This document shows positions 15,603-18,770 of a stretch of 64,000 nucleotides of DNA, in pieces (position 1 is the first letter of the stretch; every line of letters begins with the position of its first letter). The stretch lies in assembly GCA_902806435.1 (NCBI GenBank), contig CADCWO010000212.1, forward strand, positions 1 through 64,000, read 5' to 3'. Made by a program: the position numbers and the translations under genes. Under the pieces are notes generated by a model that was not told where the DNA came from, made no database searches, and saw nothing but the letters and a program-made list of their open reading frames with translations. The DNA is from an uncultured Synechococcales cyanobacterium. Lineage in GTDB: Bacteria; Cyanobacteriota; Cyanobacteriia; Thermosynechococcales; Thermosynechococcaceae.

Positions 15603-18600
15603 ATGGCGAAGGTAGCACTGCTGATTGGGGTGGAAGATTACAGACCGGAGGCAAAATCCCTGCCGGGGGCTGCAAATAATATTGCGGCCATGAAGCAAGT
15701 ATTACAGCATCCTGAGGTTGGCCGCTTTAGCCAGGTGAAAACGCTTCATAACCCGGATCCTTTGGTGATGCAACAGACAATAGAAATGCTGTTTAGCGAG
15801 CGCCAAAGAGAAGATTTGGTGCTGCTTTACTTTTACGGTCAGGGGATTAAGAACAACCAGGGAAAGTTGTACTTGGCGATGGCTTCCAGTCGTCAAGATG
15901 CTGCCGGTAAGCTTGTGCGCTCAACCGCTGTTCCTGCCACATTTATTCAAGACATGATGAACAGTAGTGCGGCTCAGCAGCAAGTGGTGATCCTTGACTG
16001 CTGGTTTCGAGAAGCAGCCCTGGAAGACTGGTCAGCCCCAGACGATCCAGTTGTTAATCATCGGCAACAGGTAAGTGGACAGCGACAAGCCGTACTGCTT
16101 GCTTCCACCACAGAAACCCATGCTCCTCAACAGTCATCTGATCTATCAGCTTTTACGCTTTACCTCGTAAAAGGTCTAGCAACGGGAGCTGCAGACATAG
16201 ATAACGACGGTGTGATTGCGATTGATGAGTGGTACGAATATGCCAGACGCAATCTACAAGTCATGGCTCCTGCCACCCAATTAGCTATCTATGCGACAAA
16301 GGCGGGTAACAAGATTTTGTTGGCCCAAGCGCCGATTGATGACCCAAAGCAAAGGTATCGCCAAACGGTTGAGCGATGGCTGCGTAGGGAGGGATCTGCG
16401 GTTACGCGTGGCATTTTAGAAGTAGTACGCGATCGCCTAGGTTTGCTGCCTCAAGAGGCAGTGGCGATCGAGGCACAAGCTCTCCAGGGCCAAGCGACAC
16501 GACCCTCAACCCAGAGAGGTGCCTTATCACCGCTCCAGAGCCACACCAAGGTTCCAGCCCCCCAGATACCCAGAACGCCCCCCTCAGTCAGCACTCAGCC
16601 AGCGGTCCCGCAACCCCTCACTCCACCCCAATCTTCCATAGAAACTTCTCCCACTCCGAAAAGGCAAGCCGTCAAGGTTGCTCTACTGATTGGTGTCAGT
16701 GATTGTGGTGCAGGCTTTACGCCTTTACCTGGAGCAATCAAAGATATCGAGGCCCTGCAACATGTTTTGCAGCACCCACAGCGTGAGTTTGCACAAGTAA
16801 AAACGCTAATTAATCCTGGCCTTCTGGTGATGCAACAGACGATAGAAACGCTGTTTGGTGATTGCCAAAGTGACGATCTCGTAGTACTTTACTTCTCTGG
16901 CCACGGCGTTAAAGATGACCGAGGAAAGCTCTATCTAACCACGAGTGCAACGCGCAAAGATACGCAGGGCAGGCTGGTTAAGTCGACAGCGGTTCCGGCT
17001 AGCTTTTTACAGGATGTCATGGGCGATAGCCAGTCTAGGCGCCAAGTGCTCATCCTTGACTGTTGGTTTGGCGGCACGTTCACAGAAAACTGGCTGGCTG
17101 AGAATGTTGGCCCGGTAAATATTCAGAACCAATTTGGCGGGGCAGGGCGTGTTATCTTAGCGTCTTCTACAGTTACCCAAAGTGCTTTTGAGCAAAAAGG
17201 AGCAGATCTCTCAACCTATACTGATTACCTGGTTGAAGGCCTTGAAACTGGCGCTGCCGATCTCAATAGTGATGGAGCGATTACTGTTCAGGAGCTGCAC
17301 GAGTATACGCGCAGAAAAGTGCAAAAGAGTGCCCCTGCCACTCAGCCAGAAATTTATGGTGCTGAAGTAGACTACGGAATTCTGCTGGCTAACGCTCCAA
17401 TTAATGACGCGCGGCTAGAGTATCGCAAAGAAGTTGAGCGTTGTGCTAGCTATGGCGGGATTTCTGTGGTTAGCCGTAGTATTTTAGACCTGCTGCGCGA
17501 GAAACTAGGGCTACCGCTTGCAGAAACAACAGCGATTGAGAGGCAAGTTCTAAAACCCCATCAAGCTTACCAGAAGAAATTACAACGCTACGCTCAGGTA
17601 TTAGTAGAAGCAATTCAGCAAGAATACCCCTTATATAACGACACACGCAGCCGGTTTATACGCTTCCAGCAAGTACTGGGGCTACGGGATGAGGATATTT
17701 CTCTAATCGAGGCGCAGGTTGTGCGTCAGGTCAGAGGCGATCAGTCAGCCGCTCAGTTCACTAGCTCGCTTGAGCCTGATGGGCAGCCCTCTAAACAAGC
17801 AACCCCTACCCGATCGTTAACCAATAAAACTACTCCAGTTAAACCTGCTGCAAAATCAACTGCTCGTAGACACTCCCATCCAGTTGATAACGCGACTGAT
17901 TCCTCTAGCCAGACTCAGAAGAATCGCTGGCTGCTTCTTGGCGCAGCCACTGCTGCGCTTTTAGCTTTGGTTGGTATTATTTATGGATTTCGCCACTGGC
18001 AAGGTTTGCAACGGCTGAAGACCGCTCAAGCACTAGCAACTCAAAAAAACTATGAGGATTGCTTTCAACAAGCCCAAGCTATTCCTGTTTCCTCAGCCGC
18101 TCAAAACCTGCTCCAATACTGCGGGGCGGAAGCCAACTGGCAGAATGTGCAAGCCCAGTCCTTTGCTGATGAATATGGGGACACAGTTTGGGCCTTGGCA
18201 ATCAGCCCGCACTCTTCAATGCTTGCTAGTACAAGCGATGATACGGTTAACCTCTGGGATATAGCAACAGGGAAACTGCGCACTCTCTCTGGTCATACTG
18301 ACACCGTTTGGGCGATTGCGATTAGTTCCGATGGGGAAACCCTGGCTAGTGGTAGTAGTGACCAGACGATCAATATCTGGAACCTCAAGACGGGGAAGTT
18401 GCTGCATACTCTCTCTGGACACACTAGTCGGGTGCTGTCCGTTGCGATCAGCCCAGATGGGCAAACCCTAGCCAGTGGTAGCAACGATAAAACAATCAAG
18501 CTGTGGAACTTGCCTACGGGCGAACTGCTGCGTACCCTACAGGGTCATACAAAGCACATTAATGCTATTGCTATTAGCCCTAATGGCAAAACGATAGCTA

Positions 18601-18770
18601 GCGGCAGTGAAGATCAGACTGTCAAGCTGTGGAACCTAAACACTGGAGAGCTACGCCGCAGTCTTTCTACCGATCAGAACGATGTTTATGCGGTTGCTTT
18701 TAGCCCCGATGGCCAATCTCTCGCGAGTGGCAATAAAGATGGCATAGTCAAGATTTGGCGTAGGAGTTAA
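15603..18770 (+). CDS. tandem caspase-like (orthocaspase-type) / WD40 membrane protein, probably protease-dead
   Basis: A 1055-residue protein with two alignable caspase-like (peptidase C14) domains at about 1-245 and 357-600, each followed by a similar helical segment (252-295 and 603-650). A membrane helix lies at about 775-797, then five WD40 repeats at about 858-1055. In active relatives the dyad is SGHG and DSCFSG. Here domain 1 has YGQG (Gln80 for His) and DCWF (Trp134 at the Cys position); domain 2 keeps His434 but also has DCWF (Trp488). Each domain carries an EF-hand-like loop (198-209, 553-564). The likely role is a membrane-tethered scaffold or pseudo-enzyme, by inference. Confidence 0.9.
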   Translation: MAKVALLIGVEDYRPEAKSLPGAANNIAAMKQVLQHPEVGRFSQVKTLHNPDPLVMQQTIEMLFSERQREDLVLLYFYGQGIKNNQGKLYLAMASSRQDAAGKLVRSTAVPATFIQDMMNSSAAQQQVVILDCWFREAALEDWSAPDDPVVNHRQQVSGQRQAVLLASTTETHAPQQSSDLSAFTLYLVKGLATGAADIDNDGVIAIDEWYEYARRNLQVMAPATQLAIYATKAGNKILLAQAPIDDPKQRYRQTVERWLRREGSAVTRGILEVVRDRLGLLPQEAVAIEAQALQGQATRPSTQRGALSPLQSHTKVPAPQIPRTPPSVSTQPAVPQPLTPPQSSIETSPTPKRQAVKVALLIGVSDCGAGFTPLPGAIKDIEALQHVLQHPQREFAQVKTLINPGLLVMQQTIETLFGDCQSDDLVVLYFSGHGVKDDRGKLYLTTSATRKDTQGRLVKSTAVPASFLQDVMGDSQSRRQVLILDCWFGGTFTENWLAENVGPVNIQNQFGGAGRVILASSTVTQSAFEQKGADLSTYTDYLVEGLETGAADLNSDGAITVQELHEYTRRKVQKSAPATQPEIYGAEVDYGILLANAPINDARLEYRKEVERCASYGGISVVSRSILDLLREKLGLPLAETTAIERQVLKPHQAYQKKLQRYAQVLVEAIQQEYPLYNDTRSRFIRFQQVLGLRDEDISLIEAQVVRQVRGDQSAAQFTSSLEPDGQPSKQATPTRSLTNKTTPVKPAAKSTARRHSHPVDNATDSSSQTQKNRWLLLGAATAALLALVGIIYGFRHWQGLQRLKTAQALATQKNYEDCFQQAQAIPVSSAAQNLLQYCGAEANWQNVQAQSFADEYGDTVWALAISPHSSMLASTSDDTVNLWDIATGKLRTLSGHTDTVWAIAISSDGETLASGSSDQTINIWNLKTGKLLHTLSGHTSRVLSVAISPDGQTLASGSNDKTIKLWNLPTGELLRTLQGHTKHINAIAISPNGKTIASGSEDQTVKLWNLNTGELRRSLSTDQNDVYAVAFSPDGQSLASGNKDGIVKIWRRS

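Follow-up and report, generated by a model that had tools for sequence, protein, structure and literature searches.

Pseudo-orthocaspases are an established class of inactive caspase homologues, as set out in the accessible part of Klemencic et al. 2019 (PMC6426788). The same part of that paper reports that the S1-pocket Asp residues are conserved in the pseudo-variants, and describes Asp95, a Ser and Asp211 as substrate-pocket residues of TbMC2. In a survey of 473 proteins from cyanobacteria, the dyads listed are YS, YN and 16 others, none with Trp, and one of 133 pseudo-variants has WD40 repeats (PMC8283722, accessible part). Deletion of the pseudo-orthocaspase of Synechocystis, SyOC, leads to a higher tolerance of oxidative stress (PMC7889975). 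The two-gene system formed by EACC1 and a caspase is described as widespread among actinobacteria and as sporadic among proteobacteria, and inactive caspases have been proposed as regulators or peptide binders in related systems (Kaur et al. 2020, PMC7159879).

The gene described here lies in a window of 64,000 nucleotides, the whole stretch of DNA analysed, from an uncultured cyanobacterium of the Thermosynechococcaceae. As judged from the ORF and its translation, Pfam and NCBIfam, it is an intact 3.2 kb ORF of 1055 residues at positions 15603-18770 of the forward strand, on which all features given below are also located. An earlier, sequence-only reading had these coordinates, strand and length exactly right, and the translation has Gln80, Cys133, Trp134, His434, Cys487 and Trp488 where it had placed them. 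The resulting protein, referred to below as the tandem protein, consists of caspase domain 1, half a helical module, a Pro-rich linker, caspase domain 2, a helical module, a disordered stretch, a membrane helix and five WD40 repeats, in this order.

Caspase-like domain 1 (residues 1-242, positions 15603-16328; Pfam C14, E 8.5e-14, and an AlphaFold2 model) has Gln80 and Trp134 at the dyad positions. Caspase-like domain 2 (residues 355-598, positions 16665-17396; Pfam C14, E 2.1e-16, an AlphaFold2 model and Foldseek) has His434 and Trp488. The codons are CAG at 80, TGG at 134, CAC at 434 and TGG at 488. Domain 1 is followed by the first half of the helical module (residues 243-300, positions 16329-16502; a profile match and helices in the model) and by the variable, Pro-rich linker between the caspase units (positions 16503-16664), which has no family match. 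The helical module after domain 2 comprises about 110 residues in two related halves (positions 17403-17741; a profile match and helices 248-356 of the domain 2 model). The sequence-only reading had not described this module, or its half copy after domain 1, but it had correctly recognised the membrane helix and the WD40 domain. The single helix spans about residues 775-795 (positions 17925-17987; hydropathy 2.2 over 19 residues), and the WD40 region lies at positions 18168-18767. Pfam (five stretches) and a motif scan recognise five repeats there, versus the usual propeller of seven blades; the propeller may be incomplete, or it may pair with another chain. Five repeats is also fewer than in the relatives of this protein.

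The tandem protein is a member of NCBIfam family NF047832 (caspase_w_EACC1, 'caspase, EACC1-associated type'; E 4.4e-83, 277.9 bits). Taken singly, its two domains score 140.1 and 146.1 bits and so pass the curated threshold of 140. Pfam Peptidase_C14 is present in both domains and the His-Cys dyad is absent from both (Q80/W134 and H434/W488); that is, the protein combines an orthocaspase domain with a substituted dyad, which is the definition of a pseudo-orthocaspase. The domain match is not a product of chance, because of the Pfam E-values and because the gene with its double Trp recurs in another genus.

Caspase domains were collected from the window genome and 39 related genomes, and from a sample of the class comprising 390 genomes. 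The alignment contains 97 domains, 95 of which span the active site, and 81 of these 95 keep both His and Cys. The dyad-intact reference set consists of 80 domains, as it leaves out one from the window genome (L001) that has H/C but is unrelated. In all 80, the column of W488 is Cys and that of H434 is His, and columns 480-492 are free of gaps. The comparison with family relatives sets W488 at the Cys column, and the claim of the sequence-only reading that both nucleophile positions are Trp stands. In domain 1 the catalytic His is lost as well (Gln80). Contrary to the expectation that active relatives read D-S-C-F, most of them here read D-C-C-F: of the 80, 70 have Cys at position 487, 6 have Ser, 3 have Ala and 1 has Thr. 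Because 10 of the 80 dyad-intact relatives have Ser, Ala or Thr at this position, Cys487 is very unlikely to be the nucleophile. Other residues have changed too. Ser490 and Gly491, each about 90% conserved in dyad-intact copies, have drifted in the copies with Trp, and four of the six Trp domains have Asn in place of the acid that matches D381. Domain 2 still has His434, Asp486, Asp381 and Ser432; by our reading, Asp95, the Ser and Asp211 of the TbMC2 pocket have their putative counterparts at positions 381, 432 and 486, respectively. A phmmer search of the PDB sequences with domain 2 found no match, and a profile search against the PDB gave only partial caspase matches that end before the nucleophile, so that the register of W488 is set by the family alignment and not by a solved structure. 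At the level of sequence, the loss of catalysis in both caspase domains is well supported.

Structural models were created with AlphaFold2 and family alignments, domain 1 being modelled separately from domain 2 and its helical module. A full-length MAFFT alignment of the tandem protein was dropped as folding input, all single-domain rows having fallen on domain 2. The pLDDT is 90.8 for domain 2 with the helical module and 86.8 for domain 1. In both models, DCW ends the central strand (125-134 in domain 2 and 126-135 in domain 1, model numbering), and Foldseek matches the domain 2 model to MALT1, metacaspases and caspases. The caspase fold is therefore predicted to be intact in both domains; structure prediction, another check that had been proposed, bears out caspase folds. 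From strand alternation in the model, the side chain of Cys487 would face the other side of the strand.

A syntenic orthologue of the tandem gene is found in the metagenome-assembled genome YX3bin19, from another genus of Thermosynechococcaceae, and was the sole match when genome contigs were searched with a three-domain profile. The ndh genes, NAD kinase and a Tmemb_14-like gene are neighbours in both genera. The orthologue has Trp at both nucleophile positions (dyads Q/W and H/W), with its domain 1 reading DYW. It is 62% identical in domain 1, 75% in domain 2 and 77% in the helical module, and 28% in the linker. The dN/dS values obtained with YN00 are 0.32/1.28 = 0.25 for domain 1, 0.17/1.33 = 0.13 for domain 2 and 0.18/0.81 = 0.22 for the helical module, rough ratios in that dS is near saturation (about 1.3). 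The caspase and helical parts of the tandem coding sequence are under purifying selection. In YX3bin19 the last WD40 part lies in another frame; because NAD kinase and ndhI look interrupted likewise in this assembly, which is 74% complete, the frame break is likely a sequencing or assembly fault.

Both domains of the tandem protein have, after the caspase core, an EF-hand-like loop of the form DxDxDGxxxxxE, which is DIDNDGVIAIDEW in domain 1 and DLNSDGAITVQEL in domain 2. The strict pattern occurs in 57 of 81 H/C copies versus 12 of the 13 readable copies without the dyad, including all six with Trp. This count leaves out the dyad-less copy L023, a fragment that ends before the loop; in L091, also dyad-less, the loop fails solely at the Gly. 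No Pfam EF-hand match exceeds the cut-off (E 0.01-0.2, best 15.7 bits versus 25.9). Because active relatives commonly have the loop too, it may have been retained for structural reasons and not for sensing.

The window genome, which is 99.98% complete, has four EACC1-type caspase domains in three proteins, and none of the four has an intact dyad. These proteins are the tandem protein (Q/W and H/W), C195 (C/W) and C227 (I/C). C195 (G000, L109:3830-5914) has about seven WD40 repeats as well as a membrane helix; C227 (G000, L108:3282-5033) has a Pro-rich C-terminus. The genome also encodes L001, in which GHG and DACHSG form an apparent H/C dyad and which sits on a very long branch outside the EACC1 type, and a further caspase gene, L002, with GYG and DAG. 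An intact dyad was not found in any EACC1-type caspase of the window genome, and outside this type only L001 has an apparent one (H/C). The EACC1-type caspases of YX3bin19 are its tandem protein and C88 (L/W). Across the sample, the dyad is absent in 13 of 21 domains from Thermosynechococcaceae versus 1 of 73 from other cyanobacteria (Fisher p 8.6e-10, a value that overstates independence, the sequences being related). Among the genomes sampled, Trp at the nucleophile was seen in six domains only, all from the window genome and YX3bin19. The DNA pattern [VI]xLDCW[FY], which covers some codings only and misses, e.g., domain 2 of the window, has 18 matches in 16 of the 390 genomes of the class; two of these, both already known, are in caspase genes, and the rest lie in short chance ORFs. 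In a set of 95 ORFs, many of which belong to short loci, tandem caspases are seen only in the window genome and YX3bin19. A text search of the literature for papers on tandem p20 domains found nothing, which carries little weight.

The two caspase domains of the tandem protein share 50% identity, and since each pairs with its own orthologue, the internal duplication predates the divergence of the two genera. A quick tree puts five Trp domains together (SH-aLRT 90). A more careful tree joins the single-domain paralogue C195 to the domain 2 pair (95/92) and places domain 1 without support. Neither a clade of five Trp domains (AU p 0.298) nor a clade of domains 1 and 2 (AU p 0.295) is rejected. 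The sequence-only reading had held that the loss preceded the duplication; this order is no more than possible: both clades survive the AU test, yet domain 2 groups with C195 instead of domain 1. A single origin of all six Trp domains is weakly rejected (AU p 0.032). The sixth domain, from YX3bin19, is an apparent independent change, in view of that p-value and of the Cys still present in its counterpart in the window genome. The change from Cys to Trp thus probably happened twice, as far as the sequences indicate.

An uncatalogued helical module of about 110 residues follows most EACC1-type caspase domains, also in L078, L106, L059 and others. By profile, it occurs after the caspase in 85 of the 95 caspase ORFs, up to six times per protein; no Pfam family matches the window copy. 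The group weakly resembles Tic110, a chloroplast import protein (PDB 4bm5, E 2.4e-5 by profile). Pfam Tic110 (PF16940) is matched by 19 of 51 members, with a best E of 6.8e-5, and a reverse search for Tic110 in 58 genomes gave two sub-threshold matches only, one of them in a caspase gene of G007. Separately, an uncharacterised N-terminal domain (residues ~1-210, with YTSFP..GF and FGWMY) is seen in L013, L018, L021, L110-L113, L117, L119 and L121. It stands in place of caspase domain 1 of the window protein and had no Pfam match in the two members tested.

Taken together, these data lead us to regard the tandem protein as, probably, a membrane-anchored and catalytically dead pseudo-orthocaspase of the EACC1-associated family that acts as a scaffold or sensor, the role itself being the part we infer. 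A non-proteolytic scaffold built from orthocaspase parts, as the sequence-only reading had it, is still the best description, with both dyads dead, the fold predicted to be intact and purifying selection in force. The two caspase domains would act as non-proteolytic modules for binding or assembly on one side of the membrane, and the EF-hand-like loop, a motif match, could tune them through calcium. The helical module and the membrane helix would couple them to the WD40 repeats, which may bind a partner. The whole protein would then be a membrane-bound adaptor, scaffold or sensor rather than a protease. What counts against this is that His434 and Asp486 remain in domain 2, and that an unusual catalytic residue is conceivable from the sequence.

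Those same residues, with a Cys one residue from the nucleophile site, would be the basis of a residual or shifted protease in which Cys487 or another residue works with His434 in domain 2. Such shifted activity, through Cys133 or Cys487, had been left open by the sequence-only reading and is extremely unlikely: intact relatives dispense with Cys at 487, its side chain would be expected on the opposite face of the strand, and a bulky Trp fills the nucleophile site. Domain 1 lacks the His altogether, and in the DYW of its orthologue that Cys is missing. That catalytic residues were lost repeatedly across the family could also point to a decaying pseudogene without function, as could the presence of five WD40 repeats only and the frame break in YX3bin19. 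This is very unlikely as well, in view of an uninterrupted reading frame, the same locus in two genera, and a dN well under dS in the caspase domains and the helical module, in contrast to a drifting linker; the frame break itself may be a fault of the assembly.

The dead domains might instead serve as a dominant-negative decoy that restrains an active caspase of the same cell by binding its substrates or its partners. In animals, c-FLIP is an inactive caspase homologue that holds an active caspase in check. In domain 2, Asp381, Ser432 and Asp486, the putative pocket residues, are kept, and L001 could be the active caspase. However, L001 falls outside the EACC1 type, and most Trp copies have already exchanged the acid at 381 for Asn. 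Inactive enzymes with active counterparts have been proposed as decoys in related conflict systems (Kaur et al. 2020, PMC7159879), but as the nearly complete window genome yielded no active close paralogue, a decoy of that kind is less likely here. The suggestion that the protein blocks an active sister protease is thereby weakened, and overall we consider a decoy unlikely.

The scaffold or sensor reading can be extended to the lineage, although only as a doubtful conjecture: EACC1-type caspases may have been turned from proteases into calcium-responsive, membrane-bound adaptors. It is equally tentative that this came about through repeated loss of the dyad by different substitutions, among them a change from Cys to Trp that probably occurred twice, in proteins that retained the fold, the calcium loop, the helical module and the membrane helix. 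If so, the tandem protein would be the internally paired form of such an adaptor. Pseudo-orthocaspases are recognised as a class and have barely been tested. To it are added here a Trp substitution of the nucleophile that is absent from the accessible part of PMC8283722, a tandem dead pair, and a concentration of dyad loss in the Thermosynechococcaceae. A genome with four dead EACC1-type domains and no intact one is a clean setting for studying non-proteolytic roles, e.g., calcium binding by the EF-hand-like loop.

Like the pseudo-orthocaspases, whose standing as a class had been noted from the sequence and is borne out by the accessible part of PMC6426788, the tandem protein is a prokaryotic caspase homologue without p10, with a substituted His-Cys dyad and a caspase fold that is predicted to be kept. 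It differs from the surveyed pseudo-variants in combining Trp at the nucleophile with WD40, for the accessible part of PMC8283722 lists no such dyad, and a single variant with these repeats. The pseudo-variants are also described, in what is accessible of PMC6426788, as keeping the S1-pocket Asp, whereas one putative matching position is Asn in four of six Trp domains. With the EACC1-caspase system (Kaur et al. 2020, PMC7159879) the protein shares family NF047832, a membrane helix and a variable C-terminal domain, but its dyad is dead, its caspase domains are two, and an EACC1 partner gene was not found. EACC1 (PF19953) has no match in the window genome in a search that does match in G063 and G074, and the gene upstream of the tandem gene is Tmemb_14 on the other strand. 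Because the defining upstream partner was not found, we place the protein in the NF047832 family and not in the EACC1 system. Among 116 cyanobacterial genomes, EACC1 was matched in two, once directly upstream of an H/C caspase; this EACC1-like match is L129 (G063:C276:2661-2918).

The H/C WD40 orthocaspases of cyanobacteria, including L110, L111, L112 and L121 from Thermosynechococcaceae, have the same order of caspase, helical module, membrane helix and WD40, but they keep His and Cys and have the N-terminal domain of ~210 residues where the tandem protein has caspase domain 1. MCA4 of T. brucei is a non-catalytic caspase homologue with a reported physiological role. MCA4 and SyOC carry other dyad substitutions, and neither is known to be a tandem membrane-WD40 protein. 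SyOC, too, is a non-catalytic caspase homologue with a reported physiological role, and its phenotype would, by analogy, be a precedent for function without the dyad (PMC7889975).
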